From: Bacteroidetes bacterium ADurb.Bin145
GTDB lineage: Bacteria; Bacteroidota; Bacteroidia; Bacteroidales; VadinHA17
Length of the DNA: 50,812 bases
Assembly: GCA_002070505.1 (NCBI GenBank)
Contig: MWDJ01000024.1
Location: 1-50,812 of the forward strand
Direction: 5' to 3'
Position 1 is the stretch's first letter; the number at the start of each line of letters is the position of its first letter. Positions 17,574 through 42,226 of the stretch are shown in pieces. The notes under the pieces were generated by a model. It was given only the letters and a program-made list of their open reading frames with translations. It was not told the DNA's origin and made no database searches. The translations under genes were made by a program, and so were the position numbers.

Positions 17574-17603
17574 TTTGATAATATAAATTAATGAGTACCT
17601 TTG
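17574..17603 (+). promoter_or_regulatory. ilv-leu operon promoter
   Basis: TTTG at 17574-17577, an 18-bp spacer, and TACCTTTG at 17596-17603 match the Bacteroidetes -33/-7 pattern. Transcription would start near 17610, leaving roughly 15 bases before the leader-peptide GTG. The sequence from the -7 box onward is nearly the same as at the his promoter (29431). Confidence 0.82.
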
Positions 17604-17624
17604 TCACTTCAATTTAAATTAAAA

Positions 17625-17684
17625 GTGAATAACACATTAATAGTCATTATTGCTCTCGTTCTTATTCTCGTGCCCTGCACCTGA
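17625..17684 (+). CDS. ilv-leu operon leader peptide
   Basis: A 19-residue leader starting at GTG: MNNTLIVIIALVLILVPCT. Four Leu, four Ile and three Val make 11 of 19 residues, the three end products of the downstream operon. It sits between the promoter and an intrinsic terminator, which is the arrangement of classic ribosome-mediated attenuators. When charged tRNA for Leu, Ile or Val is scarce the ribosome should stall in the run, upstream of the antiterminator strand; when abundant it reaches the TGA at 17682-17684, which overlaps that strand. The GTG start is inferred; an in-frame TTG at 17601 lies in the -7 box and is unlikely. Confidence 0.9.
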   Translation: MNNTLIVIIALVLILVPCT

Positions 17685-17752
17685 TCCGGGAGTGATATAT
17701 AAAAAATGAAGATATATAAAAGCTTTCCGGATAAACGGAGAGCTTTTTTTTT
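17684..17752 (+). terminator. ilv-leu attenuator: terminator with competing antiterminator
   Basis: The terminator stem is AAAAGCTTTCCG (17718-17729) with CGGAGAGCTTTT (17736-17747), one G-U pair, 6-base loop, followed by a T run (to about 17752). The antiterminator is ATCCGGGAG (17684-17692) with TTTCCGGAT (17724-17732), 9 bp including two G-U pairs; it uses the 5' arm of the terminator. Its first strand begins at the leader stop codon, so a ribosome finishing the leader would mask it and allow termination. Confidence 0.88.
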
Positions 17753-17768
17753 AATAAAAAATTTAATT

Positions 17769-19595
17769 ATGAAGAATCCGCTAAGAAGTTTAAAGACAGT
17801 AACCGGCAGGACAATGTCCGGGGCAAGAAGCCTGTGGCGCGCCAACGGGATGAAAGAGGAACAGTTTGGCAAACCTATAATTGCAGTAGTAAACTCATTT
17901 TCACAGTTTGTTCCGGGTCATGTTCATCTTCATGAAATAGGGCAGATTGTAAAAAGGGATATCGAAAAACAAGGGTGTTTCGCCCCTGAATTCAACACTA
18001 TCGCAATAGACGATGGTATAGCAATGGGTCATACTGGTATGCTTTATTCCCTGCCGTCGAGGGAACTGATTGCCGACAGCGTCGAGTATGTCTGCAATGC
18101 ACATTGGGTGGATGCAATGATATGCATCACCAACTGCGATAAAATAATCCCCGGCATGATGATGGCAGCCCTGAGACTTAATATCCCGGCTGTTGTCATT
18201 TCCGGAGGCCCCATGGAGGCTGGCCATTACGGAGATAAATATTTTAATCTTGTCGATCAGATGGTATATGGAGGGGATGATTCAATCAGCGACGAGGAAC
18301 TGTTAGAGAGAGAAAGAGTTGCCTGCCCGACCTGCGGGTCATGCGCCGGAATGTTCACAGCAAATTCAATGAACTGCCTCAGCGAAGCACTGGGACTGGC
18401 ATTACCTGGCAACGGAACGATCCTTGCCACCCACGCCAACCGTCTGAAGCTTTTCCATAAAGCTGCAAACCTGATAGTTGAGTTAGCAAATAAGTATTAT
18501 TTTGAAGGTGACAGCAGCGTACTCCCGAGATCTATAGCCTCAAGAAAAGCTTTTCTGAATGCAATGTCAGTCGATATTGCAATGGGCGGATCAACAAATA
18601 CTGTTCTTCATCTTCTTGCTCTTGCACAGGAAGCCAATGTCGATTTCACGATGAAAGATATTGATGCACTATCAAAAAAAATCCCGAATATCTGCAAAGT
18701 GGCTCCAAGTTCGGCGTATCATCTTCAGGATGTGAACCGGGCCGGGGGAATCATGGCAATAATGGGCGAACTTGAACGCCACAAACTTATCGACTCATCT
18801 GTCAGACGTATTGATTATCTTACACTTAAAGAAGCAATCGCCGATTGGGACATCTTGAGCGGCACAGCAAAACCCGAGGCTTTCGATTTTTACCGGAGTG
18901 CGCCTTCGATGAAAATAAACCTCGAAATGGGCTCACATAATACAATGTACAAAGAGCTTGATACCGACAGGGAAAAAGGATGTATAAGAGACCTGAACCA
19001 TCCATATAACAAAGACGGAGGACTGGCTGTACTTTATGGCAACATCGCGGAAAGCGGTTGCATTGTCAAAACTGCTGGTGTAGATCCCTCTTTGTTCACG
19101 TTCACCGGTAGAGCCGTTGTCTTTGAATCACAGGAAGAAGCTGCTTCAGGAATCCTGGAAGGTAAGATAACTGCAGGCGATATCGTTGTAATAAAATTCG
19201 AAGGACCAAAAGGGGGCCCGGGTATGCAGGAAATGCTCTATCCCACCTCCTACCTGAAATCAAAAGGCCTTGGAACCAAGTGCGCACTGATAACAGACGG
19301 CAGATTTTCCGGAGGTACCTCGGGACTGTCAATAGGACACGTTTCGCCTGAAGCAGCAGCCGGAGGAGCAATAGCACTTATCAGAACAGGTGATACAATT
19401 GAGATAAATATCTCAGAAAGAAAGATAAATGTAAATCTTCCTGAAAAGGAACTTAATAAAAGAAGGAAAGAGGAGGAATCCATTGGAAACATGGCTTTCA
19501 AACCCAGAACACGGAACAGGAATATACCGGCATCATTGCGAGCCTATGCTGCTACAGTTACTTCGGCAGATAAGGGAGCAGTGAGGGTTATTTAG
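17769..19595 (+). CDS. ilvD: Dihydroxy-acid dehydratase
   Basis: A 608-residue enzyme converting dihydroxy-isovalerate and dihydroxy-methylvalerate to the 2-keto acids of valine and isoleucine. I chose ATG 17769 ([21 protein letters not shown]) because an upstream in-frame ATG at 17706 lies before and through the terminator hairpin. Fe-S ligands are in [11 protein letters not shown] (Cys about 123) and [11 protein letters not shown] (about 190). Further conserved parts are GGSTNTVLH, the [11 protein letters not shown] segment and [11 protein letters not shown] near the C-terminus. First gene of the branched-chain operon, directly under attenuator control. A 200-bp gap with paired 9-bp arrays separates it from ilvB. 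Confidence 0.96.
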
Positions 19596-19600
19596 CAGAG

Positions 19601-19736
19601 AGGTCTTGCAGGTCTTGCAGGTCTTGCAGGTCTTGCAGGTCTTGCAGGTCTTGCAGGTCCTGGAGGTCCTGCAGGTCATGTGCGATTTAAACGACTTGCA
19701 CGACCTGCACGACCTGCACGACCTGCACGACTTAAA
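19601..19736. repeat. Opposed 9-bp tandem arrays forming a long potential hairpin
   Basis: Nine units of AGGTCTTGC or variants (19601-19681) are followed by five units of CGACCTGCA or variants (19692-19736). The second array is the near reverse complement of the first with about one mismatch per 9 bp, so the transcript between ilvD and ilvB could fold into a hairpin of up to about 40 bp with regularly spaced mismatches. It begins 5 bases after the ilvD stop and is not translated. It lacks a T run, so it is not a standard terminator. Confidence 0.88.
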
Positions 19737-19795
19737 CCCCGTGGTTAAAAAGAATAAAAAAAAACAGATAAAAGAAAACTGACAAAGGAAGAAGT

Positions 19796-21541
19796 ATGAA
19801 AGAACAACATGAGACAAAACAGGCAGAGATCCAGGTTAACGGACTGGAAAATATTACGGGAGCTGAAGCGATACTGAGATGCCTGGTGGAAGAAGGTGTT
19901 GATACTATCTTCGGATACCCCGGCGGAGCAATTATGCCGGTATACGATAAGCTGCTTGATTATTCCGATAAGCTCAGGCATATACTCACCCGTCACGAAC
20001 AGGGAGCAGCACACGCTGCACAGGCATACGCAATGGTGGCCGGCAAACCCGGCGTCTGCTTTGCAACATCCGGACCTGGTGCAACCAATCTTATCACAGG
20101 CATCGCCAATGCCTATCTCGACTCTGTCCCTGTGGTCTTCATAACCGCCCAGGTTGTCTCCGGACTTATAGGTACCGATGCTTTCCAGGAAACTGATATC
20201 CTGGGGGTCTCAATGCCCGTTACCAAATGGAACTGTCAGATCAAAAAATCACAGGATATCCCAGGTACCATAGCAAGAGCCTTCTATATAGCAAAGACAG
20301 GAAGACCGGGACCTGTACTGATCGACATAACAAAAGATGCACAGGTAGATAAGCTATTATTCAGATATAAGAAGTGCAGCTACCTGAGAAGCTACAATCC
20401 TCATCTGCCACTTAAAAAGAAAGCTGTCGAATCTGCTGCAATAATGATCAACCATGCCGAGAAACCATTGATACTCGCCGGTCATGGTATCCTGATCTCA
20501 GGTGCTGAAGAAGAGCTCAGAACATTTGCTGAGAAAACAGGAATACCTGTCGCGGTAACCCTTCTCGGTCTTTCATGCTTCCCATGCGATCACAGGCTAT
20601 ATGCCGGTTTTCTGGGGATGCACGGGAATTATGGCCCTAACCTGCTGACTAATGAAGCCGACCTTATAATAGCTATCGGGATGCGTTTTGATGACCGTGT
20701 CACCGGTAACCTGAAGAAGTACGCTAAAAATGCCAGGATCATACATATCGAGATCGATGAGGCAGAGATCAACAAGAATGTACAGGTCGACCTCGAGATA
20801 CACAGCGATGCCAGGGAGGCATTACAGTATCTTATTCCTCTTGTCAGTGAGAAATCATACGAATCGTGGATCAGGGAATTCAGGATATGCGACAAGGTTG
20901 AATTTGAAAAGGTCATCAAAGCAGAGACGAAACCTGAAAAAGGTGAGATAAGGATGGGTGAAGTGGTCAGGATGGTGTCAGAAATGACTGCAGGGAATGC
21001 CATAATCGTGACTGATGTAGGCCAGAACCAGATGTCAGCTGCGCGCTATTATAAATTTACCTCACCCGGCAGTTTTATAACATCAGGCGGCATGGGAACG
21101 ATGGGATTCGGGCTCCCCGCATCAATAGGAGCAAAGATCGGTAACCCCGATAAACAGGTTATTGGTTTCATTGGTGACGGAGGCTTTCAGATGACAATAC
21201 AGGAACTGGGTACTATTATGCACTACAAAATACCTGCAAAAATTATCATTCTCAACAACGGATTTCTTGGAATGGTAAGACAGTGGCAGCATATGTTCTT
21301 TAACAGAAGATACGCTTCAACAGAGCTTGTCAATCCCGACTTTGAGATAATCGCAAGAGGTTACGGTATACCTGCAAAGACTATTTCAGCAAGGCAGGAT
21401 TTGAAGGAAGGCCTTCAGCAAATGCTTGACGCAGAAGGACCTTTCATCCTTAACATAGCTGTTGAAAAGGAAGGAAATGTTCTGCCGATGGTAGAACCAG
21501 GTGCTTCAGTATCGGATGTGACATTAAATTATAAAGGCTAA
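19796..21541 (+). CDS. ilvB: Acetolactate synthase, large (catalytic) subunit
   Basis: A 581-residue ThDP- and FAD-dependent enzyme that condenses pyruvate with pyruvate or 2-ketobutyrate, the first common step to valine/leucine and isoleucine. The catalytic Glu is in LTRHEQGAAHAA (Glu68). The substrate and FAD domain (about 200-340) contains GMHGNYGPN and MRFDDRVTGN. The ThDP motif GDGGFQMTIQELGTI ... ILNNGFLGMVRQWQ is near 460-500. Length fits the family. The small subunit ilvN follows 1 bp after the stop, so the complex is made from adjacent cistrons. Confidence 0.96.
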   Translation: MKEQHETKQAEIQVNGLENITGAEAILRCLVEEGVDTIFGYPGGAIMPVYDKLLDYSDKLRHILTRHEQGAAHAAQAYAMVAGKPGVCFATSGPGATNLITGIANAYLDSVPVVFITAQVVSGLIGTDAFQETDILGVSMPVTKWNCQIKKSQDIPGTIARAFYIAKTGRPGPVLIDITKDAQVDKLLFRYKKCSYLRSYNPHLPLKKKAVESAAIMINHAEKPLILAGHGILISGAEEELRTFAEKTGIPVAVTLLGLSCFPCDHRLYAGFLGMHGNYGPNLLTNEADLIIAIGMRFDDRVTGNLKKYAKNARIIHIEIDEAEINKNVQVDLEIHSDAREALQYLIPLVSEKSYESWIREFRICDKVEFEKVIKAETKPEKGEIRMGEVVRMVSEMTAGNAIIVTDVGQNQMSAARYYKFTSPGSFITSGGMGTMGFGLPASIGAKIGNPDKQVIGFIGDGGFQMTIQELGTIMHYKIPAKIIILNNGFLGMVRQWQHMFFNRRYASTELVNPDFEIIARGYGIPAKTISARQDLKEGLQQMLDAEGPFILNIAVEKEGNVLPMVEPGASVSDVTLNYKG

Positions 21542-21542
21542 A

Positions 21543-22112
21543 ATGGGAAAACAGGAATTTACAATATCATTGTTCAGCGAGGATCATATCGGGATACTTA
21601 ACCAGATCACGATTATACTGACCCGCCGGCAGATAAACATAGAAAGCATTACTGCATCTGAATCTGCTGTAAAAGGCGTACAGCTTCTCACTCTCGTGGT
21701 GAAAACATCTCCCGACATGGTAAGGAAGGTCGCAAAACAAATGGAAAAGCTGGTTGATGTGCTTAAGGTTTTTGTCCACTCTTCAGATGAGATAATCTAC
21801 CAGGAGATTGCACTTTACAAGGTAAAAACAAACGGATTAATGTCAGGAAATATTATTGATAGTATTGTCAGGAACCATCACGCCAGGATACTTGTTGTAT
21901 CGCCCGAATACACTGTTATTGAGAAGACCGGACACAGATCGGAGATCAACGATCTGCTGAACCATCTTGAGCCTTACGGCATTCTTCAGTTCGTGAGATC
22001 AGGAAGGGTGGCTGTAACTAAACAGGTCAAGGAGCTGAATGCATACCTGAAGGAAATGGATGGAGCTGACAGATACAGGGAAGAAAATATTGAACCTTAT
22101 GAAAAGAATTAA
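21543..22112 (+). CDS. ilvN: Acetolactate synthase, small (regulatory) subunit
   Basis: A 189-residue regulatory subunit. The N-terminal ACT domain (about 4-80) contains FTISLFSEDHIGILNQIT and RRQINIESITASES, the region that binds valine or other branched-chain effectors. The C-terminal half (about 85-170) is the usual ALS_ss_C-like domain that contacts IlvB. It is longer than the E. coli IlvN and fits the IlvH length class. Translation probably couples to ilvB, one base upstream. Confidence 0.92.
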   Translation: MGKQEFTISLFSEDHIGILNQITIILTRRQINIESITASESAVKGVQLLTLVVKTSPDMVRKVAKQMEKLVDVLKVFVHSSDEIIYQEIALYKVKTNGLMSGNIIDSIVRNHHARILVVSPEYTVIEKTGHRSEINDLLNHLEPYGILQFVRSGRVAVTKQVKELNAYLKEMDGADRYREENIEPYEKN

Positions 22113-22145
22113 CGATAATATAATTATAAACTAAAACTTAAAATT

Positions 22146-23198
22146 ATGGCTAAAATAGATTTCGGCGGTGTACTTGAAAATGTTGTCACAAGAGAAGAAT
22201 TTCCTCTTTCAAAAGCTCGTGAAGTGCTTAAAAATGAAGTTGTTGCAGTTATTGGTTACGGAGTCCAGGGACCCGCACAGGCACTGAACATGAAAGATAA
22301 TGGTATCAATGTTATCATCGGTCAGGCTCCTGAATTCAAAAGTGACTGGGACAGGGCAGTAAAAGATGGCTTCGTGCCCGGAAAGACATTGTTCCCGGTT
22401 GAAGAAGCAGTAAAAAAAGGTACTATTATTCAGTACCTCGTCTCAGATGCTGCACAGCGTACTCTGTGGCCGGTTGTTAAATCCAATCTTAAGAAAAGTG
22501 ATGCCCTTTATTTCTCCCATGGCTTTTCAATAACCTATAAAAAGCACACAGGAGTTGTTCCTCCGGAGTATGTTGATGTAATAATGTGTGCTCCCAAAGG
22601 ATCGGGAACCAGCGTTAGAAGGAATTTCCTTGCAGGAGCCGGGATAAATACAAGTTATTGCGTATTCCAGGATTTTACCGGCCGTGCTGAAGAAAGGACT
22701 ATTGCCATTGGCATAGCTATCGGATCAGGTTATCTGTTCCCGACAACATTTGAGAAAGAAGTTTTCAGCGATCTGACAGGCGAGCGCGGCGTTCTTATGG
22801 GTGCTCTTGCCGGGATAATGGATGCACAGTACCAGGTGCTTCGCGAGAACGGCCATTCACCATCCGAAGCATTCAATGAGACTGTCGAGGAACTTACTCA
22901 AAGCCTTATCCGCCTCGTTGATGAGAACGGGATGGACTGGATGTACAGGAACTGCAGCGCCACAGCCCAGAGAGGAGCTCTCGACTGGCGGCCGAAATTT
23001 ATGCAGGCTACACTCCCGGTTTTCAAGGAGCTTTATAAAAAAGTAGCATCAGGAGAAGAATGCGTAAGAGTACTGGAATCGACAGGCACTCCCGATTATA
23101 AGGAAAAACTTGATGTTGAATTAAAGGAACTTGGTAACTCAGAGATCTGGAAGACAGGCGCAGCAGTGAGAAAACTGAGGCCCTCTGTGAAAAAATAA
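22146..23198 (+). CDS. ilvC: Ketol-acid reductoisomerase
   Basis: A 350-residue enzyme that isomerises and reduces acetolactate and acetohydroxybutyrate with NAD(P)H. The Rossmann motif [10 protein letters not shown] is at 37-46; the following loop [13 protein letters not shown] sets cofactor choice and is not the typical NADPH loop, so preference is not assigned. Mg-binding and catalytic parts are in [20 protein letters not shown] and the C-terminal knotted domain ([26 protein letters not shown]). Class I length. Third enzyme of the same operon. Confidence 0.95.
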
Positions 23199-23215
23199 TA
23201 CAAAAAAAAGAAGAA

Positions 23216-24709
23216 ATGGAAGAAAAGGTTTCAATTTTCGACACTACGCTGAGAGATGGCGAACAGGTGCCGGGCTGCCAGCTGAATACGATTGAAAAGA
23301 TCCAGGTGGCCGAAGCGCTTGAGGCTCTTGGCGTTGATGTGATTGAGGCAGGATTCCCGATATCGAGCCCCGGAGATTTCAACTCAGTGGTGGAGATCTC
23401 AAAGGTGATAACAAATCCGGTTATCTGCGCACTGACAAGAGCAGTGAAAAAAGATATAGAAGTTGCTGCTGAAGCTCTTCAGTATGCGAAAAGGAAGAGA
23501 ATACACACCGGAATCGGCACTTCTCCCTATCATATCAAATACAAGATAAAAACCACTCCGGAAGAAATAATAAACAGGGCTGTCGATGCGGTCAAATACG
23601 CCCGTAAATTTGTCGATGATGTGGAATTCTACGCCGAGGACGCCGGGAGAAGTGAAAATGATTACCTGGCAAAGGTCATAGAAGCTGTTATAAAAGCTGG
23701 CGCTACAGTGGTTAATATCCCTGATACAACCGGTTATTGCCTCCCCGAAGAATACGGTGCAAAGATCAGATATCTGAAGGAAAATGTCCCGAACATTGAT
23801 AAGGCTATAATCTCAACCCACTGCCACAATGACCTTGGAATGGCTACTGCCAATACAATGATGGGAGTTATAAATGGTGCAAGGCAGGTTGAGGTCACTA
23901 TGAATGGTATAGGTGAAAGAGCAGGAAACACCTCACTTGAAGAGGTGGCGATGATAATAAAAAGCCATCATAACCTGAATCTTAGAACCGATATAAACTC
24001 CAAACTGATCTATTCAACAAGCAGGCTCGTGTCAACCCTTATGAGCATGCCCGTTCAGGCCAACAAGGCTATCGTCGGGAGGAATGCATTCGCTCATTCA
24101 TCAGGTATCCACCAGGATGGCGTTCTTAAGAACCGTGAGAACTATGAGATCATTGATCCTCACGAAGTTGGAATAAGGGAGTCATCTATCATCCTGACAG
24201 CCCGCAGCGGCAGGGCAGCTCTTAACCATCGCCTTCAGCTGCTGGGTTTCAACTACGACAAGGAAGCTCTCGACGATATCTACCAGCGTTTCCTTATCCT
24301 GGCAGATAAAAAGAAAGAGATAAATGATGAGGATATCAGGATGCTGACAGGTGAAGTCTTCCAGGGGGAAAAATCCCTGAAGCTTGAAGTGCTCCAGGTA
24401 ACATGCGGTAAATCAACTGTTCCGGTAGCTACAGTAGGTTTGAGGATTAACGGGGAAGTTCATACATCAACGGCAGCCGGAAACGGCCCTATCGATGCCG
24501 CTTTCACTGCTGTAAAACACCTTATCAGCAGGACAGTGCACCTGGAAGAGTTCCTTATACAGGCAATAACAAAAGGGAGCGATGACTTCGGGAAGGTGCA
24601 TATCCAGGTTGAACACGAAGGCAAGATATATTATGGCTTCGGAACAAACACAGATATCGTTACCGCTTCAGTTGAAGCGTTTATAGACGCTATATCAAAG
24701 ATCAAGTAG
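23216..24709 (+). CDS. leuA: 2-isopropylmalate synthase
   Basis: A 497-residue synthase condensing acetyl-CoA with 2-ketoisovalerate, the committed leucine step. HMGL-like catalytic barrel in about 1-270: [12 protein letters not shown] (9-20), [12 protein letters not shown], and [13 protein letters not shown] with the metal-binding His pair. Residues about 280-380 are the linker domains ([11 protein letters not shown]). Residues about 385-497 are the LeuA allosteric domain that binds leucine. The length and the VPGC motif fit true LeuA and distinguish it from the second homologue at 26753. It lies 17 bp after ilvC. Confidence 0.93.
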
Positions 24710-24736
24710 ATCTTAAGAACATGATTATAATTTAAT

Positions 24737-26140: not shown

Positions 26141-26153
26141 CAATAAGACTTTT

Positions 26154-29430: not shown

Positions 29431-29438
29431 TACCTTTG
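29431..29438 (+). promoter_or_regulatory. his operon promoter (-7 element)
   Basis: TACCTTTG matches the Bacteroidetes -7 consensus; the -33 region is T-rich but has no clear TTTG. The 5' untranslated stretch to the leader ATG at 29457 is short. From the -7 box on, TACCTTTGT and ACTTCAATTTAAA are shared with the ilv promoter, offset by one base. Confidence 0.72.
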
Positions 29439-29456: not shown

Positions 29457-29516
29457 ATGTACAGGAATATGTCACATCATCATCATTTTCGCTCTTGCTC
29501 TCAGGCGAGGAGATAA
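29457..29516 (+). CDS. his operon leader peptide
   Basis: A 19-residue leader, MYRNMSHHHHFRSCSQARR, with four consecutive His codons (all CAT). A second in-frame ATG at 29469 could start a 15-residue version; both include the His run. The run sits upstream of the antiterminator strand at 29495-29507. Low charged tRNA-His should stall the ribosome there and allow antitermination into hisG. It is functionally like the enterobacterial his leader but differs in sequence. Confidence 0.93.
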   Translation: MYRNMSHHHHFRSCSQARR

Positions 29517-34420: not shown

Positions 34421-35130
34421 GAATAATAATGGCTATCGATATTCTGGGTGGAAAATGCGTCAGGCTTACCCGTGGTGATTTTGCATCCGGAAAAGTATAC
34501 AATAACGATCCTGTTGATGTCGCCCTTGAAATAGAGGATAATGGTCTGAAATATGTCCACGTTGTCGATCTGGATGGCGCAAGGGAGAAACATATTGTTA
34601 ATTATAAGATACTTGAGAAGATCGCAGCGAAGACAGGCCTGCTGATAGATTTCGGCGGCGGTATACGTTCTGATGAAGATCTGAATATAGCTTTCAATTC
34701 AGGTGTAAAACAGGTGACGGCCGGCAGTATAGCAGTCACTGATCCTTCCATGATGATGAGGTGGCTTAAGGACTATGGTAATGAAAAGATAATACTTGGT
34801 GCGGATTTCATTGGTGATGAGATCGCAACTCATGGATGGACAGAAAGATCTGATAAGAAACTCATCAATTTCATTTCAGATTACTGTTTAAAGGGTGTGA
34901 AATATGTTATCTGCACCGATGTTGATAAAGACGGGATGATGAAAGGTCCTGCTACTGAAATGTACAAAAAGATACTTGAGAATGCGAAGGTGAACCTCAT
35001 AGCAAGCGGAGGCATCTCTTCGCTGAAAGATATTGAAGATATCCGGGATTCAGGCTGCGAGGGCGCTATCATCGGGAAAGCTGTTTATGAAGGTAAACTC
35101 AAACTAAAGGAGCTTAGGGACCTATGCTGA
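34417..35130 (+). CDS. hisA: ProFAR (phosphoribosylformimino-AICAR phosphate) isomerase
   Basis: A 237-residue TIM barrel that performs an Amadori rearrangement in mid-histidine synthesis. It begins [18 protein letters not shown] after a few residues; Asp in IDILGG is the catalytic base position and [11 protein letters not shown] carries the second Asp. [18 protein letters not shown] and [11 protein letters not shown] are phosphate-binding and barrel motifs. It is a close structural relative of HisF, which follows with a 7-base overlap. Confidence 0.94.
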
Positions 35131-35879
35131 AAAAAAGGATAATACCATGTCTCGATATCCGTGATGGACGAACAGTGAAAGGGGTGAATTTTGTTGACAT
35201 CAGGGATGCCGGTGACCCTGTCGAACTGGCAAAGATCTATTCAGACAGGAGTGCCGATGAACTCGTGTTTCTGGATATCACAGCTACTGTTGAGAACCGG
35301 AAAACACTGGCCGCACTTGTCGAAAGAATTGCTGCAGGGATAAACATCCCTTTCACTGTCGGAGGCGGTATAAGCAGGATTAACGATGTGGCCCTTCTTT
35401 TGAAAGCAGGAGCTGATAAGATCACGATCAATAGTGCCGCCGTCAGAAGGCCGGCATTGATAACTGAGATATCAAGGGAATTCGGGAGCCAGTGTGTTGT
35501 TGTAGCTATTGATACCAACATTGTGAATAATGAATGGAGAGTATTTGTCGATGGAGGAAGAACTCCGGTTGATCTTCCGACATTGAAATGGGCCTCAATG
35601 GCGGCTGACCTGGGTGCAGGAGAGATACTGCTTACGTCTATGCAGCGGGATGGAACAAAAGACGGATTCTCGGTGGATATTACATCTGAAGTAAGCCGGC
35701 TGGTCAATATACCTGTAATTGCATCCGGAGGGGCAGGAACGATGGAACATTTCAGAGATGTGTTCATCAGTACAGATTGCAGCGCTGCCCTTGCAGCAAG
35801 CATTTTCCATTATGGAGAGATTGATATAACAGAACTGAAACAATACTTGCGTAAGGAAGGAATTGCGGTGAGAGCGTGA
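35124..35879 (+). CDS. hisF: Imidazole glycerol phosphate synthase, cyclase subunit
   Basis: A 251-residue TIM barrel pairing with HisH to make IGP and [28 protein letters not shown] at the start provides the catalytic Asp11. Other motifs are [47 protein letters not shown] (second catalytic Asp) and [11 protein letters not shown]. Usual length. It overlaps hisA. A 41-bp gap precedes hisIE. Confidence 0.95.
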
Positions 35880-35920
35880 TTGTTATTATAATGAACTAAT
35901 GAATTTATAACCAGGATTTT

Positions 35921-36514
35921 ATGAACCAGATAGATTTTAAAAAAGGTAACGGACTCGTACCTGCTGTGATCCAGGATAATTCAACCCTGCAGGTCCTGAT
36001 GGTGGGATTTATGAATGAAGAATCCTTTCAGAAAACTTTATCGGAGGGAAAGGTGACATTCTTCAGCAGATCAAAAAACAGGCTCTGGACAAAAGGTGAA
36101 ACATCAGGTAACTATTTATATGTTAAAGAAATAACAACTGATTGCGATAACGACTCGCTGCTGATCAGAGTCGATCCGGCTGGTCCTGTCTGTCACACAG
36201 GAAGTACCTCATGTTTTGGGGAAAATACGTCGCCCAGGGGATTTCTCTATAAACTTGAAAAGATCGTTAATGAGAGAATCGATAATGATGTAAAGGATTC
36301 ATATACAAACAAGATCTTCCGCCAGGGAATCAACCGGGCTGCCCAGAAAGTAGGAGAAGAAGCTGTCGAACTCATTATCGAGGCAAAGGATGATAATACT
36401 GAACTATTCCGGAACGAAGCTGCTGATCTTCTTTATCATTTCCTGATATTACTGAAGGCAAAAGGCTCCTCTCTGGCTGAAATTGAGGATATACTTAAGT
36501 CAAGGCACAAATAA
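35921..36514 (+). CDS. hisI: Bifunctional phosphoribosyl-AMP cyclohydrolase / phosphoribosyl-ATP pyrophosphatase
   Basis: A 197-residue HisIE fusion. HisI part (about 1-108): [18 protein letters not shown] and a zinc-binding set from DCDND and CHTGSTSCF. HisE part (about 110-197): RINQ-like [23 protein letters not shown] followed by [13 protein letters not shown], the MazG-like acidic helices. It completes the pathway: with HisG, D, C, B, H, A and F all ten reactions are encoded. Last gene of the his unit; no terminator before the next promoter at 36562. Confidence 0.95.
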
Positions 36515-36561
36515 AAACCCTTTAAATAATTAACTATCCGGCAGATTTTTCTGTAAATTGT

Positions 36562-36591
36562 TTTGTTTTTGCGAATATTAAATTACTTTTG
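36562..36591 (+). promoter_or_regulatory. Aromatic operon promoter
   Basis: TTTG at 36562-36565, an 18-bp spacer, and TACTTTTG at 36584-36591 match the Bacteroidetes -33/-7 consensus, with the same spacing as the ilv promoter. The leader ATG follows 20 bases after the -7 box. Confidence 0.8.
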
Positions 36592-36611
36592 TGAACCAAT
36601 TAAGATCAGAA

Positions 36612-36677
36612 ATGAATATTCTGCACAGCTATTTTGCCCCTTTTTTTTACTTCTACTTTTATTTTAGCAGAAGGTAA
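36612..36677 (+). CDS. Aromatic operon leader peptide (Phe + Tyr)
   Basis: A 21-residue leader with six Phe and four Tyr, mostly in the alternating run FFYFYFYF, preceded by YFAP. It ends SRR and TAA at 36675-36677. Because Phe and Tyr codons are interleaved, shortage of either amino acid should stall the ribosome in the same place. This suits the downstream genes, which serve both branches (pheA and tyrA). No Trp codon is present. The antiterminator strand begins immediately after the stop. Confidence 0.93.
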   Translation: MNILHSYFAPFFYFYFYFSRR

Positions 36678-36744
36678 GGGGATTATTGTGTAGATATAAT
36701 AACTTATAGAAATGCAGGTCCCCGGAAACGGGGACTTTTTTTTT
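36678..36744 (+). terminator. Aromatic operon attenuator: terminator with competing antiterminator
   Basis: The terminator is AGGTCCCCG (36716-36724), GAAA tetraloop, CGGGGACTT (36729-36737), then T's to 36744. The antiterminator is GGGGATT (36678-36684) with GGTCCCC (36717-36723), 7 bp including two G-U pairs. Its first strand starts one base after the leader stop codon, so a terminating ribosome would cover it. Confidence 0.87.
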
Positions 36745-36757
36745 AATAAAGGTAAAA

Positions 36758-37588
36758 ATGAAGATATCAATACAGGGAGAAAAAGGATCTTTTCACGAAG
36801 TTGCGGCAAGACAATACTTCAGGGATGAAACAATTGAGATAGTGCCCTGCTCAACTTTCGATCTGACCCTGATGTCGGTAATTGAAGGGAAAGCTGATTT
36901 TGCTGTAATGGCCATTGAGAATGCCAGATCGGGAAGCATCCTTTACAACTACACTCTTATCAGGGAATCAGGAATGAAGATACTTGGCGAACATAATCTC
37001 AGAGTGGTCCAGAACCTGATGGCCCTCCCGGATCAGTCTTTAATGAGCATCCGTGAAATAAGATCCCATCCGATAGCTCTGGCTCAATGCATGACATTCC
37101 TTAACAGGCTTCACGGTGTTACATTGATTGAGAGTGATGATACTGCAGCCAGTGCAAGACAGATAAGCGAGAACCGGCTCGAAGGTGTTGCAGCTATAGG
37201 CCCCTTGATAGCAGCTGATATATATGGCCTTTCAATACTTGCAAGAGGTATTGAAACTTACAAGAAGAATTATACACGCTTCCTCGTGCTGGGTAATGAA
37301 AAAGATGCGAACACTGACGGGAACAAAGTATCAATATGTTTCTCAACAGGGCACCAGCCCGGGTCACTGGCTGCTGTCCTTGTAAGACTGGCCGAGCTTG
37401 ATGTGAATCTTTCCAAGATCCAGTCGGTGCCCAGACTGAACGGCGACTGGGAATATATGTTCTATGTCGATCTTGAGCTTAATCCCGACCATGACATGGG
37501 TCTTATAAAGAACATGCTTGATAATTACACAACGAACCTGGAGGTATTGGGAGTTTATAATAAAGGAGATAAACTATATGAAAGTTAA
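36758..37588 (+). CDS. pheA: Prephenate dehydratase
   Basis: A 276-residue stand-alone enzyme turning prephenate into phenylpyruvate. The catalytic domain is about 1-180: QGEKGSFHEVAARQYF near the start, AIENARSGSI, and NYTRFLVLG (TRF motif with the essential Thr). Residues about 190-270 are an ACT domain with PGSLAAVLVRLAELDVNL and SKIQSVPR, the phenylalanine-binding ESRP-like segment, so feedback inhibition is expected on top of attenuation. No chorismate mutase is attached; that activity is on the DAHP synthase downstream. Confidence 0.94.
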   Translation: MKISIQGEKGSFHEVAARQYFRDETIEIVPCSTFDLTLMSVIEGKADFAVMAIENARSGSILYNYTLIRESGMKILGEHNLRVVQNLMALPDQSLMSIREIRSHPIALAQCMTFLNRLHGVTLIESDDTAASARQISENRLEGVAAIGPLIAADIYGLSILARGIETYKKNYTRFLVLGNEKDANTDGNKVSICFSTGHQPGSLAAVLVRLAELDVNLSKIQSVPRLNGDWEYMFYVDLELNPDHDMGLIKNMLDNYTTNLEVLGVYNKGDKLYES

Positions 37589-38756
37589 ACCCGCTGAACG
37601 GACTAATGCCGTTAAAGAATACTATTTCTCTCAAAAGCTGAGACAAATTGAGCAGATGCGCAGGAATGGCGCTGATGTGATAAATCTTGGTATAGGCAGT
37701 CCCGATCAGCCACCATCGGAAAACACTATACGCCGGCTTGCTGAGGAAGCTGCAAAACCGAATGCCCATGGATACCAGAGTTATAACGGCATTCCTGATC
37801 TGAGGAAAGCATTTGCCGGATGGTACAAAAAGTATTTCCGTGTTGAACTCGATCCTGACAGTGAAATCCTTCCGCTGATAGGCAGCAAGGAAGGGATAAT
37901 GCATATCAGCATGGCTTTCGTCAACCCCGGTGACGAGGTCCTGGTTCCTGATCCTGGCTATCCTACATACTCTTCCGTCACGAGTCTTATCGGAGGTAAT
38001 ATAATGTATTATGACCTTGATGAGAATAACGGATGGGCTCCCGACCTGAACAGGCTTGAGTCATCTGACCTGAGCCGGGTGAAGCTGATGTGGATCAATT
38101 ACCCTCATATGCCAACCGGTGCAAAGGGTTCTATGAGGCTTTTTGAAAAACTGGTCGGATTTGCTTCAAAATACAACATACTCCTGTGTAACGATAACCC
38201 GTACAGTTTTATCCTTAACAAGGAATATTTAAGTCTCCTTACAGTCGATGGAGCCCGGGAAATAGCGCTGGAACTTAATTCCCTTAGCAAATCGCATAAT
38301 ATGGCAGGCTGGAGAATTGGAATGGTTGCGGGACACAGGGAATACATATCTTCAATACTTAAAGTTAAAAGCAATATGGACTCAGGAATATTTCGCGCCA
38401 TGCAGCTGGCTGCAGTTGAGGCCCTTGGCAATCCTGATCCCTGGTATGATACAGTAAATTTTCATTATGTTAACCGGAAAAAGATAGTTGAATCCATAAT
38501 GGATCTGTTAAATTGCCGGTATGATAAAAACCAGGCCGGACTATTTGTATGGGGAAAGATACCTGATGATATAACAAGCTGCGAGCAATTTGTGGAGGAT
38601 ATCCTTCTGAAAGCAAATGTCTTCATAACTCCGGGATTTATTTTCGGAAATAACGGAAAAAGATATATCCGTATATCCCTGTGTGCTGATGAGAAAACCC
38701 TTGATGAATCAAGAAAAAGGATCGAATTTTACTTAAAGAATCAAATTAAACAATAG
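37578..38756 (+). CDS. Class I PLP aminotransferase (aromatic/aspartate-type)
   Basis: A 392-residue PLP aminotransferase starting at ATG 37578 (MKVKPAERTN), preceded by GGAG, a rare Shine-Dalgarno-like site in this window; it overlaps the pheA end by 11 bases. Motifs are NLGIGSPDQPP (36-46), PDPGYPTYSS (124-133), NDNPYS (205-210) and SLSKSHNMAGWR with Lys238 as Schiff base. Placed between pheA and tyrA, it probably transaminates phenylpyruvate and hydroxyphenylpyruvate (or prephenate). An LL-diaminopimelate-aminotransferase-like role is the alternative by sequence type. Confidence 0.87.
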   Translation: MKVKPAERTNAVKEYYFSQKLRQIEQMRRNGADVINLGIGSPDQPPSENTIRRLAEEAAKPNAHGYQSYNGIPDLRKAFAGWYKKYFRVELDPDSEILPLIGSKEGIMHISMAFVNPGDEVLVPDPGYPTYSSVTSLIGGNIMYYDLDENNGWAPDLNRLESSDLSRVKLMWINYPHMPTGAKGSMRLFEKLVGFASKYNILLCNDNPYSFILNKEYLSLLTVDGAREIALELNSLSKSHNMAGWRIGMVAGHREYISSILKVKSNMDSGIFRAMQLAAVEALGNPDPWYDTVNFHYVNRKKIVESIMDLLNCRYDKNQAGLFVWGKIPDDITSCEQFVEDILLKANVFITPGFIFGNNGKRYIRISLCADEKTLDESRKRIEFYLKNQIKQ

Positions 38757-38760
38757 ACAG

Positions 38761-39606
38761 ATGAAAGTGGCGGTGATTGGAATAGGTCTGATAGGCGGAT
38801 CACTGATGATAGATCTCCGAAAAAGGAAGTTTGCAAGCAGAATAACAGGTGTCGATACAAATGTACAACACCAGAATATTGCATTGCTCTGCGGGCTTGT
38901 TGATGAGATCGGCAATCTTGAAGATGCCATAGACAAGAGCGACCTGATAGTGCTGGCAACACCGGTTAATACAAACTGTTCGATGCTGCCGGTTATCCTC
39001 GACAGGATAGAGGGTACATCAAAAGTGGTAACGGATATGGGATCGACAAAAGGAAGCATCTCGGAGATCTCGAAGGATCATCCTGCAAGGGGAAGGTTTG
39101 TAGCGGCTCATCCGATGGCAGGTACTGAATTCTCAGGACCGCTTGCCTCTATCGGAAGGCTCTTCGATTATAAAACTGCAATAATCTGCGACCCCGAGAT
39201 GAGCGACCCTGATGCTCTTGAAACAGTAAAGAGCATGCTGCAGACACTTAATATGAAGATCGTCTATATGAACTCAGCCGTTCATGATGTTCATGTTGCC
39301 TATGTTTCACATATATCGCATATTACATCTTTCTCATTGGCGCTTAGCGTCCTGGAGAAGGAACAGGAGGAAGAGAATATTCTGACTCTTGCAGGGGGAG
39401 GTTTTGAAAGTACGGTACGACTGGCTAAGAGCAATGGTGATACATGGGCTCCGATCTTTGTAGAGAATTCGGAATATATCCTGGAGGCAATTGACACCTA
39501 TATTGAAAAGATGGAGATCTTCAGGAAAATGATAGCCGCTAAGGATGAAGCCGGATTAAAGTCAATTATGGAAGAAGCAAACAAAATAAGAAAGATCCTG
39601 AATTAA
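38761..39606 (+). CDS. tyrA: Prephenate dehydrogenase
   Basis: A 281-residue NAD(P)-dependent enzyme. Rossmann motif VIGIGLIGGS (4-13), then VDTN after the second strand, favouring NAD. Substrate-side motifs are TDMGSTKG, AAHPMAGTEFSGP and the catalytic His region VSHISHITSF. It oxidatively decarboxylates prephenate to hydroxyphenylpyruvate for tyrosine. No ACT or chorismate-mutase domain is fused. Four bases after the aminotransferase stop. Confidence 0.93.
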   Translation: MKVAVIGIGLIGGSLMIDLRKRKFASRITGVDTNVQHQNIALLCGLVDEIGNLEDAIDKSDLIVLATPVNTNCSMLPVILDRIEGTSKVVTDMGSTKGSISEISKDHPARGRFVAAHPMAGTEFSGPLASIGRLFDYKTAIICDPEMSDPDALETVKSMLQTLNMKIVYMNSAVHDVHVAYVSHISHITSFSLALSVLEKEQEEENILTLAGGGFESTVRLAKSNGDTWAPIFVENSEYILEAIDTYIEKMEIFRKMIAAKDEAGLKSIMEEANKIRKILN

Positions 39607-39621
39607 TTAATTCCAATAAAA

Positions 39622-40734
39622 ATGGTAGTAAAACTTGATACTTCAGGCATTAAAGACTGGGAAGGTTACAAAGGAAGACCTTTCCTAGTCTCAGGTCCGT
39701 GCAGCGCTGAGTCGGAAGAACAGGTGATTGAAACCTCAAAAGCCCTTGCAGTGACCGGTAAGGTAAGTATCTTCAGGGCGGGTATATGGAAACCGCGGAC
39801 AAGGCCAAACAGTTTCGAAGGAGTGGGTAATGCCGGGTTGAAATGGCTCAGAAGGGTGAAACAGGAGACCGGACTGCTTGTGGGGACAGAAGTGGCCAAT
39901 GAAAAACATGTTTACGAAGCATTGAAATATGGCATCGATATGCTGTGGATAGGGGCAAGAACATCTGTTAATCCGATAACCGTACAGGAGATCGCAGATG
40001 CCCTTAAAGGGGTTGATGTAATGGTATTCGTCAAGAACCCTGTCAATCCTGATATTGAATTATGGATAGGCGCTCTGGAAAGAATTGCCAGTGCCGGAAT
40101 AAAAAGACTCGGGGCCATTCACCGCGGGTTTTCAACCTACGAAAAAACAATTTACAGGAACCAGCCTAACTGGCAGCTCCCTATCGAGCTCAGAAGAAGA
40201 ATTCCCGAGATACCGATATTGTGCGATCCGAGTCATATAGCCGGCTCCAGAGAATACCTTCATGAAATTTCCCAGAAAGCCATGGATCTGAATTTCGACG
40301 GACTGATGATTGAATCCCACATTAATCCTGAGAAAGCCCTCAGTGATGCATCTCAGCAGGTAAACCCTGAGGAGCTGAAGGAGCTTCTCAGCAGACTTAT
40401 TTTAAGAAGCCCTTCCACAGATGATCCAAAACTCCTTGATGTTCTTGGAGAACTCCGTCAGCAGATCGATGTTTTTGATGATCATCTGCTCGATCTTCTT
40501 GAAAAACGAATGAAAGTCTCTGAAACTATCGGGCGTTACAAAAAGGAAAACAATATTACTATCTTACAAAGCGCCCGGTGGGATGAAATAGTAAAGAGGG
40601 CAATGATAAAAGGACGTGCCAAAGGACTCAGTGAAGAACTTATAGATTCAATGTTCAAAGCTATACATCAGGAATCTATCAACAGGCAGATGAAGATCAT
40701 GAATGACACAACAGATATTAATTCCCAAACTTAG
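39622..40734 (+). CDS. aroF: DAHP synthase / chorismate mutase fusion
   Basis: A 370-residue bifunctional enzyme. Residues about 1-265 are a type I-beta (KDO8P-synthase-like) DAHP synthase: VSGPCSAES near 23-31, RAGIWKPRTRPNSFEGVG near 52-69, and CDPSHIAGSREYL. Residues about 275-365 are an AroQ chorismate mutase helix bundle: LRQQIDVFDDHLLDLLEKRM, IGRYKKEN and a final ESINRQ. It therefore supplies the first step of the shikimate pathway and the step that commits chorismate to Phe/Tyr. In related enzymes the mutase domain also mediates feedback by prephenate. The gene symbol is one of several in use for this fusion. Confidence 0.93.
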   Translation: MVVKLDTSGIKDWEGYKGRPFLVSGPCSAESEEQVIETSKALAVTGKVSIFRAGIWKPRTRPNSFEGVGNAGLKWLRRVKQETGLLVGTEVANEKHVYEALKYGIDMLWIGARTSVNPITVQEIADALKGVDVMVFVKNPVNPDIELWIGALERIASAGIKRLGAIHRGFSTYEKTIYRNQPNWQLPIELRRRIPEIPILCDPSHIAGSREYLHEISQKAMDLNFDGLMIESHINPEKALSDASQQVNPEELKELLSRLILRSPSTDDPKLLDVLGELRQQIDVFDDHLLDLLEKRMKVSETIGRYKKENNITILQSARWDEIVKRAMIKGRAKGLSEELIDSMFKAIHQESINRQMKIMNDTTDINSQT

Positions 40735-40748
40735 AGTAAATTTGCATT

Positions 40749-41999
40749 ATGGAGATAACAGTTGTGCCATCAGTGGTTAAGGGAACCGTAAGGGCCCCGT
40801 CATCAAAGAGCATGTCGCAGAGGGCTATTGCTGCTGCATTGCTTTCAGATACTGAATGCACTATATTAAATCCTTCATATTGCAATGATTCCCTTGCTGC
40901 CATCCGTATTGCTCAAAACCTCGGTGCCAGTGTTGAAAAAAGCACAACAGAGCTTAAGATACTTAGTTCACACATAATAAAGGACAGAACGCTCAATTGC
41001 GGAGAATCAGGGCTTGCCATCAGGATGTTCTCGCCGATTGCCGCACTTAACCCGGGAGAGATAATAATGACCGGTACAGGATCGCTGAAAAACCGTCCGA
41101 TGAAAATGATCGAAGATACTCTCAACCAGCTCGGTGCAGTATGCAGAAGCAATGCAGGTCTCCTTCCGCTGACAATAAACGGACCAATCAAGGGAGGTAA
41201 TTGCGAGACTGACGGATCGGTCAGCTCACAGCTTCTGACTGGTCTGCTTATGGCGCTGCCTGTGGCTGAAGGAAGTTCGGTAATAAATGTCCTCAACCTC
41301 AAGAGCAAACCATATATCGATATGACACTTCAGGTCCTTGAGAAATTCGGAATAAAGGTCATTAATGATAATTATAAGGTTTTTAAGATTGAAGGCAACC
41401 AGAAATACAAAGCAGCAACATTTGAGGTTGAAAGCGACTGGAGCGGAGGAGCATTCCTTCTCGTTGCCGGAGCTGTAAACGGCGATGTGACTGTAGAGGG
41501 ACTCCGTACCGACAGCCGTCAGAGTGACAAAACAATACTCTCGGCTCTCGACAGGGCCGGAGCTGCAATAACAGTCTCCGAAAACTCAGTGAGGATAACA
41601 AAATCCAGGCTCAGATCATTTGAATTCGATGCAACTGAATCGCCCGATCTCTTCCCGCCTCTTGCCGCTCTTGCAGCTTATTGTAAGGGAGTGACAGGTA
41701 TAAAGGGTGTGTCGCGGCTCATCCATAAGGAAAGCGACCGCGCCAAAGCTCTACTGGAAGAGTTCAGAAAAATGAATATCAAAGTTGAGATCAAGGGTGA
41801 TTATATGCTCGTTACCGGAGGAAAGGTTCATGAAGCCAGGGTTAATTCGCATAATGACCACAGGATAGCGATGGCAGTCGCAGTCGCCGCCCTTGGAGCA
41901 AACGGTAAAATTCAGATTGAAGATCCCCTTTGCATTGCCAAATCATATCCGGGATTCTTTGATGATCTGAAGGCTCTGGGAGCTTCCGTTTCCGGATAG
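40749..41999 (+). CDS. aroA: 3-phosphoshikimate 1-carboxyvinyltransferase (EPSP synthase)
   Basis: A 416-residue two-domain enzyme joining shikimate-3-phosphate with phosphoenolpyruvate. Motifs are APSSKSMSQRAIAAALLS (substrate Lys/Ser/Arg near 17-26), NCGESGLAIRMFSPIAA, TGTGSLKNRPMKMIEDTLNQLG and HNDHRIAMAVAVAALGA near the C-terminus. It has SMSQR where many class I enzymes have SxSxR and lacks the typical LPGS..SN pattern, as in other short bacterial forms. Last gene of the aromatic unit; aroB, D, E, K and C are not in the window. Confidence 0.93.
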   Translation: MEITVVPSVVKGTVRAPSSKSMSQRAIAAALLSDTECTILNPSYCNDSLAAIRIAQNLGASVEKSTTELKILSSHIIKDRTLNCGESGLAIRMFSPIAALNPGEIIMTGTGSLKNRPMKMIEDTLNQLGAVCRSNAGLLPLTINGPIKGGNCETDGSVSSQLLTGLLMALPVAEGSSVINVLNLKSKPYIDMTLQVLEKFGIKVINDNYKVFKIEGNQKYKAATFEVESDWSGGAFLLVAGAVNGDVTVEGLRTDSRQSDKTILSALDRAGAAITVSENSVRITKSRLRSFEFDATESPDLFPPLAALAAYCKGVTGIKGVSRLIHKESDRAKALLEEFRKMNIKVEIKGDYMLVTGGKVHEARVNSHNDHRIAMAVAVAALGANGKIQIEDPLCIAKSYPGFFDDLKALGASVSG

Positions 42000-42064
42000 C
42001 TGACGTTAATGCCATTTAATGATTTTTAATAAATTCATCATTATCATTAAAAAAATCCTGTATT

Positions 42065-42096
42065 TTTGTTTTGATTTGAAAAATTTTATAGTTTTG
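42065..42096 (+). promoter_or_regulatory. trpB2 promoter
   Basis: TTTG at 42065-42068, a 20-bp spacer and TAGTTTTG at 42089-42096 fit the Bacteroidetes consensus. The first leader ATG (42099) is only two bases after the -7 box, so the real leader start is probably a later in-frame ATG (42108 or 42111). Confidence 0.72.
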
Positions 42097-42098
42097 CA

Positions 42099-42143
42099 AT
42101 GATGAAAATGATGAGGATATATAATTGGTGCTGGCGCAGCTGA
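42099..42143 (+). CDS. trp leader peptide
   Basis: A leader of up to 14 residues, MMKMMRIYNWCWRS, with two Trp codons separated by Cys. Given the promoter position, translation may start at 42108 or 42111 and give 10-11 residues. The Trp codons lie shortly before the TGA at 42141-42143, and the antiterminator strand begins 8 bases later. This is comparable to other trp leaders, which also need only two or three Trp codons. Confidence 0.88.
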   Translation: MMKMMRIYNWCWRS

Positions 42144-42151
42144 TGAATTGA

Positions 42152-42226
42152 TGCTGTGAAATAGCCGTTATATACCCTTTTAAAGATATTTAAGTACAGG
42201 CACGCATTTCACGGCGTGCTTTTTTT
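42152..42226 (+). terminator. trp attenuator: terminator with competing antiterminator
   Basis: The terminator is AGGCACGC (42198-42205), 8-base loop, GCGTGCTT (42214-42221), then T's to 42226. The antiterminator is TGCTGTGAAAT (42152-42162) with ATTTCACGGCG (42206-42216), 11 bp including two G-U pairs; it takes up the loop and the beginning of the 3' arm of the terminator. It is the longest antiterminator pairing of the four attenuators. Confidence 0.88.

Follow-up and report, generated by a model that had tools for sequence, protein, structure and literature searches.

Enterobacteria control their ilv, his, phe and trp operons by attenuation, in which a leader peptide rich in the operon's own product is combined with 1:2, 2:3 and 3:4 pairings and a terminator with a U run. 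The attenuated operons of enterobacteria are scattered in the genome. In the aro-trp supraoperon of Bacillus subtilis, transcripts from the upstream promoter reach the trp attenuator of the next unit, and this attenuator is single and protein-mediated (TRAP). Within the Bacteroidota, Bacteroid-trp (RF01692) is listed in a table (PMC2864571), an attenuator is predicted before the B. thetaiotaomicron pheA operon (Table 7 of PMC1173090), and attenuation at amino-acid operons is described in Flavobacterium psychrophilum (PMC9723704). Elsewhere there is a Streptococcus pneumoniae supraoperon with two attenuator units (PMC1173090), and mgtCBR has tandem attenuators within one shared leader (PMC3641672).

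The locus we discuss lies in a window of 50,812 nucleotides, the whole of the stretch analysed (contig MWDJ01000024.1, Bacteroidetes bacterium ADurb.Bin145). The host belongs to a group of Bacteroidales that is known through environmental DNA. The + strand carries four units in a row: ilv-leu, his, phe/tyr/aro and trpB2. Each has a -7 box of the Bacteroidota type, then a short ORF in which the unit's own amino acid is abundant, and then an intrinsic terminator against which an antiterminator pairing competes. An earlier note had proposed a promoter, a leader and a terminator/antiterminator for each of the four units, and every one of these parts was found in its place.

Unit 1
17596..17603, + strand: ilv promoter -7 box, TACCTTTG
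17625..17684, + strand: ilv leader peptide, VNNTLIVIIALVLILVPCT, GTG start, I/L/V in 11/18 residues after the start
17685..17692, + strand: 5' strand of the ilv antiterminator (region 2), 98.2% of cells paired in 48 genomes
17718..17752, + strand: ilv attenuator terminator and T run (terminator scan; 99.2% paired)
17769..29391, + strand: ilvD ilvB ilvN ilvC leuA leuC leuD cimA leuB (NCBIfam); the listed ilvD ORF start, 17706, falls inside the leader, so the ATG at 17769, where homology matches begin, is taken as the true start

Unit 2
29431..29438, + strand: his promoter -7 box, TACCTTTG, starting about 40 nt past the leuB stop
29457..29516, + strand: his leader peptide, MYRNMSHHHHFRSCSQARR, alternative start 29469
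29497..29510, + strand: 5' strand of the his antiterminator (region 2), overlapping the end of the leader ORF, 98.6% paired and nearly invariant
29545..29576, + strand: his attenuator terminator and T run (terminator scan; 96.2% paired)
29590..36514, + strand: hisG hisD hisC hisB hisH hisA hisF hisIE (NCBIfam)

Unit 3
36584..36591, + strand: phe promoter -7 box, TACTTTTG
36612..36677, + strand: phe/tyr leader peptide, MNILHSYFAPFFYFYFYFSRR, F/Y 10/21
36676..36683, + strand: 5' strand of the phe antiterminator (region 2), predicted duplex of -8 kcal/mol or better in 46/46, a count that includes G008, which is not valid because its segment overlaps the terminator
36717..36744, + strand: phe attenuator terminator and T run (terminator scan; Rfam Phe_leader below cut-off at 36626-36744, 29.7 bits against 55)
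36758..41999, + strand: pheA, aminotransferase, tyrA, aroF-aroQ fusion, aroA (NCBIfam)

Unit 4 and cluster end
42089..42096, + strand: trp promoter -7 box, TAGTTTTG
42099..42143, + strand: trp leader peptide, MMKMMRIYNWCWRS, alternative start 42111
42153..42162, + strand: trp region 2, pairing with the leader codons (1:2) or with the terminator arm and loop (antiterminator)
42199..42226, + strand: trp attenuator terminator and T run (terminator scan, aligned pairing)
42263..43624, + strand: trpB2 (TrpB-like; NCBIfam TIGR01415)
43638..43668, + strand: ordinary intrinsic terminator at the cluster end, with no leader, 13 nt past the trpB2 stop

These leaders resemble enterobacterial attenuators in their product-rich leader peptides, their alternative pairings and their terminators. 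They differ in that Rfam has 0 matches in the window at the gathering cut-off and finds only Phe_leader and Trp_leader below it: Phe_leader (RF01859) reaches 25.8 of 55 bits on the ilv leader, and Trp_leader (RF00513) 22.4 of 41 bits. Bacteroid-trp (RF01692), which we take to be a leader-peptide attenuator, has no match in the window with E up to 5. A threonine leader was looked for by eye in 500 nt before the longest aspartokinase gene, and none was seen.

The operons here stand in series, whereas in enterobacteria they are scattered; the B. subtilis cluster has one TRAP attenuator, and here there are four leader-peptide ones. The Bacteroidota cases (PMC2864571, PMC1173090, PMC9723704) come from the same phylum and place attenuator candidates before amino-acid operons, but in the available parts of those descriptions there is no attenuator series and no shared use of a terminator, unlike the chain here. 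S. pneumoniae and mgtCBR have more than one attenuator per cluster or leader, as here, but what is available of those texts mentions no arrangement in which each of four adjacent gene sets has its own gate for a different amino acid. Our literature search, whose coverage is incomplete and so is not proof of absence, found no description of neighbouring operons that are separated by a chain of leader-peptide attenuators for amino acids. Leader-peptide attenuation in the Bacteroidota is already published; the new part is the conserved series of four.

A leader ORF of the operon's own class lies before ilvD (Ile/Leu/Val) in 49/50 relatives, hisG (His) in 54/56, pheA (Phe/Tyr) in 50/52 and trpB2 (Trp) in 51/56; these counts include up to three genomes of g10, another genus of the same family (hisG, pheA, trpB2), and drop upstream stretches shorter than 200 nt. 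Own-codon ORFs are thus present in 91-98% of relatives against 1-6% of dinucleotide shuffles for the same class. Non-cognate codon classes occur before each operon at 0-15%; operon and codon class go together almost without exception. We considered chance short ORFs as leaders, and the cross matrix of class by operon together with the dinucleotide shuffles rules them out. The -7 boxes are kept as well, in 49/49 relatives for ilv (as TANNTTTG near the leader), 45/51 for his, 50/50 for phe and 48/49 for trp, against 8-17% in shuffles. One leader or another is missing or decayed in G012, G017, G020 and G048. The leader, -7 box, unit-end and outgroup counts all use the G set of genomes; loci L002-L052, which apparently overlap it, were left out.

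Translational leaders, too, look like short ORFs dominated by a single type of residue ahead of a gene. The leaders here might act on translation, through coupling or initiation, with the hairpins being incidental, but we consider this very improbable. A GC-rich hairpin with a T run comes after almost every leader, together with a conserved alternative pairing, and the gene start lies at a median of 82-98 nt past the leader stop, which is far for coupling. Among genus genomes with the leader, a strong terminator is present in 48/49 for ilv, 51/51 for his, 46/50 for phe (not found in 4/50) and 49/49 for trp, with medians of -16 to -18 kcal/mol.

The mutually exclusive pairings are conserved across relatives and partly covary. 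They were followed in alignments A1-A4, limited to genus genomes that have a leader together with a terminator at least as stable as -11 kcal/mol, so that 2 (ilv), 3 (his), 4 (phe) and 6 (trp) genomes were skipped; the phe terminator is left uncounted on A3, in which terminators of two types are misaligned. In fold prediction, removing region 1 and the 3' arm brings out the antiterminator in the ilv, his, phe and trp leaders of the window alike. The his antiterminator is also strong in an alignment-free duplex test, with at most 5/100 shuffles equally stable in 49/51 genomes. The trp 1:2 helices are 99.3-99.6% paired across aligned genomes and the trp antiterminator 84.5% overall, its first six pairs being present in 47-48/48; the duplex test gives only 7/48 for it (median z -1.0), with a test segment that omitted part of the terminator loop. 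Leader codons and stems, whose loss in related genomes would have told against the earlier note's reading, are kept. The covariation of the stems, which it suggested testing, is seen in part: the ilv terminator shows compensatory change at 4 pairs and the ilv antiterminator scores as covarying at one pair only, while the near-invariant his sequences show none in antiterminator or terminator in the genus alignment. Counts of pairs changed on both sides were equalled by 228/500 shuffles for the ilv antiterminator, 48/500 for the phe 1:2 pairing and 45/500 for trp 1:2 plus terminator. Taken together, conserved codon class, stems and order support the reading of four leader-peptide attenuators, one per unit, as predicted from these sequences.

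The same four-leader order, which the earlier note suggested looking for in relatives, is found within this genus only. Order and strand are kept in 50/50 in-genus contigs checked that have at least two of the four marker genes, and all four lie on one contig in 22 genus genomes, in a table that excludes partial or paralogous matches and most family and order rows. Four of the excluded in-genus matches (G036:C635, G051:C53, G034:C260, G019:C282) have the same order and strand by eye. In g10 the order is ilvD-pheA-hisG-trpB2 (G079, G086), and loci L036, L037 and L040 have leuB-pheA-trpB2. In G079 and G086 pheA lies 33 nt past leuB and the phe leader is absent, which suggests that a leader accompanies the status of a separate unit. 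Elsewhere in the order the leaders are present before ilvD in 19/20 (including three g10 genomes, whose units are linked), hisG in 17/20, pheA in 19/20 and trpB2 in 15/20. These outgroup leaders are very different in sequence. Only 3/38 outgroup genomes with at least two genes placed have two on one contig, on opposite strands in G094 and G139 and, with 17 kb between them, on one strand in G088; the list of 38 omits g10 as well as G124 and G133, each with two genes on one contig. Since operons with similar leaders are mostly unlinked in the rest of the order, this genus seems to have built the chain by stacking ready-made attenuated modules that look older than the chain itself.

The order itself might be selected, as a one-way hierarchy from ilv through his and phe to trp in which downstream starvation recruits upstream polymerases. 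The 50/50 contigs speak for this, as does the sighting of long leuB-his insertions in four genomes (G018, G029, G058, G037). However, those four show that insertions of 3 to 12 kb between units 1 and 2 are tolerated, further ones of 1.1 to 1.7 kb occur in G016, G032, G049 and G050, and g10 has a different order. We think selection of this kind unlikely.

Terminator scans of the window do not by themselves rise above chance (20 found against 18.1 expected in the first, 3 against 7.1 in the second), so the weight lies on the position, strength and conservation of the four hairpins. The terminator-like sites that these scans give on the + strand from 17.4 to 43.6 kb are the four attenuators and three five-pair stems (20039, 25316, 35552), the stems all within coding sequence. 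The claim that no other intrinsic terminator stands at the three joints agrees with these scans of the window, and among genus genomes only 3/129 unit ends that meet a next leader have one, which is the shuffle background. The ordinary terminator 3' of trpB2, a fifth and not an attenuator, had been overlooked in the earlier note. By junction the counts are 0/39 for leuB-his, 3/47 for hisIE-phe and 0/43 for aroA-trp, against 15/54 after trpB2 (p = 9e-7, a value too small, like the others here, because the genomes are related). Leader-less junctions and insertions above 600 nt were dropped, and G043 enters the trpB2 counts twice. A laxer criterion gives 3/42, 8/49 and 4/50 against 29/56. Even trpB2 ends with a terminator in only 28%. 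This scarcity fits attenuators that double as terminators of the previous unit, and the comparison supports the next attenuator as the probable first intrinsic stop for a polymerase reading through.

The leuB end offers a natural experiment that is suggestive only. Where his does not follow directly, 5/13 leuB ends have a terminator, against 0/39 where it does (p = 0.0005), and of these five terminators only two (G018, G030) look canonical; the sequence after leuB in G030 and G005:C88 lies beyond the contig end. Family-level leuB ends have a terminator in 0/6, so the lack need not stem from the next attenuator.

The main competitor is that four independent attenuated operons simply sit side by side, with no cross-gating, and that Rho or processing ends each upstream transcript short of the promoter that follows. 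Own promoter boxes in every unit and modules at mostly unlinked loci elsewhere are just what independent units would look like, and the six family-level leuB ends agree. Against this, terminators are missing at leader-facing ends when these are compared with cluster ends from the same set of genomes, and the his -7 box so close to the leuB stop would leave little untranslated room for Rho. We give this explanation somewhat less than an even chance.

We believe it likely that these are four classical ribosome-mediated attenuators stacked end to end as modules, each probably also ending the read-through of the previous unit. The parts, their conservation, their order and the missing terminators come from sequence and comparison. 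Each unit would be transcribed from its own promoter. When the Ile/Leu/Val, His, Phe/Tyr or Trp codons of the leader are translated slowly, region 2 would be free to pair with region 3, which would block the terminator (3:4) and let the unit's genes be transcribed; with sufficient charged tRNA the terminator (3:4) would form. With hardly any other intrinsic terminator at unit ends, the attenuator probably stops most read-through from the unit before, and some would pass during a shortage of the next amino acid. We infer this switching, read-through and gating by the next amino acid. A conserved one-way gate with four inputs, in which upstream polymerases feed the next unit only when its amino acid is short, is a stronger claim that we find doubtful. 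If it is true, each attenuator would have two roles, as a promoter-proximal switch for its own operon and as a conditional terminator for the preceding one.

This work documents four types of Bacteroidales leader-peptide attenuator for which Rfam, at its cut-offs, gives no match in this window. Any phylum can be examined in the same way, by comparing codon class with operon and by following the loss of terminators at unit ends. The work also points to a lineage with stacked attenuated operons in which switches may replace terminators, and makes it possible to ask whether one attenuator serves two neighbouring operons and how the stacking of operons alters their regulation.

Leader-peptide attenuation is an established mechanism, and the earlier note had proposed that four consecutive units in the window each carry a promoter, a leader rich in their own product and a terminator with an alternative pairing. 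This is confirmed in the window and extends to dozens of genomes. The window is a complete contig (C29 being another) of a 3.95-Mb assembly, and the closest relatives of the window within the named collection are metagenome assemblies. All four gene sets are preceded by a -7 box of the Bacteroidota type (consensus TAnnTTTG), a product-rich short ORF, and a GC-rich hairpin followed by a run of T.

Gene sets of the four units
Within 17.6-43.7 kb, + strand: unit 1, ilvD-ilvB-ilvN-ilvC-leuA-leuC-leuD-cimA-leuB
Within 17.6-43.7 kb, + strand: unit 2, hisG-hisD-hisC-hisB-hisH-hisA-hisF-hisIE
Within 17.6-43.7 kb, + strand: unit 3, pheA-aminotransferase-tyrA-aroFQ-aroA
Within 17.6-43.7 kb, + strand: unit 4, trpB2

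Terminator scans of the + strand from 17.4 to 43.6 kb found, beyond the four attenuators, only three intragenic stems of five pairs. A fifth terminator lies 13 nt past the trpB2 stop; its loop has nine bases, and the scan that skipped it had a loop limit of eight. The his -7 box starts about 40 nt past the leuB stop. The mechanical ilvD ORF begins at an in-frame ATG at 17706, which lies 5' of the attenuator hairpin; an automatic annotation could therefore put the ilvD start within the leader. Rfam recognised none of the four window leaders at its cut-off; there were weak matches of Phe_leader to the phe leader (E 0.28) and the ilv leader (E 2.1), and of Trp_leader to the trp leader (E 1.9).

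Several repeats were seen in passing. Between ilvD and ilvB (19601-19731) are two arrays of 9-base units, AGGTCTTGC x8.6 and ACGACCTGC x4.6, roughly mutual inverts, and further short repeats lie 3' of hisIE in genome G007 and 3' of leuB in G050. Elsewhere the window has tandem repeats at 5765-5851 (8/24-base) and 17095-17158 (7/14/21-base, GGAAGTC), an almost perfect 66-base duplication at 50610-50737, and a NagX-like gene in two overlapping frames, an apparent frameshift, at 46280-47402.

Short ORFs of each codon class were sought up to 330 nt 5' of each gene in the genus genomes and up to three genomes of g10, another genus of the family. The codons proved to be conserved: an Ile/Leu/Val ORF precedes ilvD in 49/50 (other classes 0-1), a His ORF hisG in 54/56 (0-4), a Phe/Tyr ORF pheA in 50/52 (0-8) and a Trp ORF trpB2 in 51/56 (0-4). 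Shuffled upstream stretches gave the matching class in 1-6% and any class in at most 8%. A -7 box lies near the leader start in 49/49 (ilv), 45/51 (his), 50/50 (phe) and 48/49 (trp), and in 8-17% of shuffles. All four places are positive in 19 of the 22 genomes with the four genes on a single contig. The three misses are G006, with two Ns at the expected ilv leader place; G012, where the stretch from leuB to the his terminator is gone, promoter and leader with it, and the terminator is kept; and G048, with an aroA-trpB2 gap of 51 nt holding no promoter, leader or terminator. Promoter and leader are also absent from junctions in G017, with the terminator kept, and in G020, with the terminator apparently decayed. 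These four leader-less junctions may be either real losses or assembly errors.

Attenuators in such systems depend on alternative folds, in which region 1 pairs with region 2, while 2:3 is the antiterminator and 3:4 the terminator. The ilv antiterminator, formed by the strand directly 3' of the leader stop and the 5' arm of the terminator, has 98.2% of cells paired in 48 genomes and a covariation score above 500/500 shuffles; it has a single pair with compensatory change, equalled by 228/500 shuffles, and the ilv terminator has four (0/500). The his antiterminator and terminator are 98.6% and 96.2% paired and show no covariation in the genus alignment because they are nearly invariant. Pairing is 96% in the outer 1:2 helix of phe, with compensation at three pairs (48/500), and a phe 2:3 duplex at least as stable as -8 kcal/mol was found in 46/46, although that of G008 is not valid because its segment overlaps the terminator. 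For trp, pairing reaches 99.2% across the 1:2 helices and terminator, where four pairs are compensated (45/500); the trp antiterminator is 84.5% paired, with its first six pairs present in 47-48 of 48 and five compensated pairs (13/500). Overall, the pairings are conserved and covary in part. An alignment-free duplex test, passed when at most 5/100 shuffles were equally stable, was passed by 49/51 his, 32/48 ilv, 31/46 phe and 7/48 trp leaders. When the window leaders were folded without region 1 and with the 3' arm cut, the 2:3 pairs numbered 8 (ilv), 11 (his), 6 (phe) and 7 (trp).

A fifth leader lies on another contig of the window's genome (C29, locus L310, 1295-1425), with a Trp-type peptide, MKVFLTNWCWWLSNFHLKM, and a -22 kcal/mol hairpin with a T-rich tail, 5' of an anthranilate-synthase-type gene; it matches no Rfam amino-acid leader family even at E up to 1. 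That contig also carries a trpB homologue. The tryptophan switch of trpB2 is thus its own, apart from this Trp leader.

Order and strand are kept in the genus: each of the 50 contigs checked that have at least two of the four marker genes keeps them collinear on a single strand. In the pre-his slot the leuB of several genus genomes (e.g. G006, G008, G009, G041, G045) is only 38% identical to that of the window, while other genomes have 85-91% there; this looks like an exchange of two leuB types at one place. Genomes G079 and G086 of g10 have the order ilvD-pheA-hisG-trpB2 and are the two misses at pheA, which is there fused to unit 1 with a leuB-pheA gap of 33 nt and no phe leader. Loci L036, L037 and L040 read leuB-pheA-trpB2, with the trp leader present and the phe leader absent.

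Among 20 family- or order-level genomes sampled per gene, leaders precede ilvD in 19 (g10 supplying three of the 20), hisG in 17, pheA in 19 and trpB2 in 15, 14 of the last with a terminator; shuffles gave 5/200, 4/200 and 10/200 for hisG, pheA and trpB2. In the two Saprospiraceae loci L048 and L050, too, an ORF rich in Phe/Tyr and a terminator lie 5' of pheA. Two of the genes share a contig in 3 of the 38 outgroup genomes with at least two placed; G124 and G133, found by eye outside that count, are further cases. The attenuators thus belong to their operons, and the chain is most likely a later product of stacking.

The earlier note also saw no further intrinsic terminator in the window where one unit meets the next promoter. 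Under one criterion (a hairpin of -10 kcal/mol or better with 5 T among 8 bases, no more than 100 nt past the stop) terminators occur at leuB in 0/39, hisIE in 3/47 and aroA in 0/43, the same as the shuffle level (2/195, 6/235, 0/215). The trpB2 end has one in 15/54 versus 8/270 shuffles (Fisher p = 9e-7 against the leader-meeting ends), and in-genus leuB ends without his directly after have one in 5/13 versus 0/39 (p = 0.0005), both p values being too small because the genomes are related. Only two of those five look canonical, in G018 and G030, and in G030 the gene after leuB is beyond the contig end. Family-level leuB ends have a terminator in 0/6. A laxer criterion on longer stretches gives 3/42, 8/49 and 4/50 at leuB, hisIE and aroA versus 29/56 at trpB2. 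Each attenuator probably doubles as terminator for the preceding unit, and we regard the interpretation in the earlier note as partly supported.

For the gating of a transcript that comes from upstream, the closest precedent is the aro-trp supraoperon of B. subtilis. It is important to realize that candidates for attenuation are already known in the Bacteroidota. Passages in the literature report a Bacteroid-trp motif (PMC2864571), an attenuator predicted upstream of the B. thetaiotaomicron pheA operon (PMC1173090, Table 7), short ORFs resembling leader peptides in the same species (PMC7366714), and strong clues of attenuation upstream of amino-acid operons in F. psychrophilum (PMC9723704). 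Four such attenuators in series were not found described in the literature searched, and this is what is new here. The terminator would be the default fold when the leader ribosome is not stalled, and a polymerase arriving from the upstream unit would therefore mostly stop at the next attenuator. If a ribosome stalled on the codons of the next amino acid, the incoming polymerase would pass, so we infer that the amino acid of each next unit may gate the polymerase of the unit upstream.
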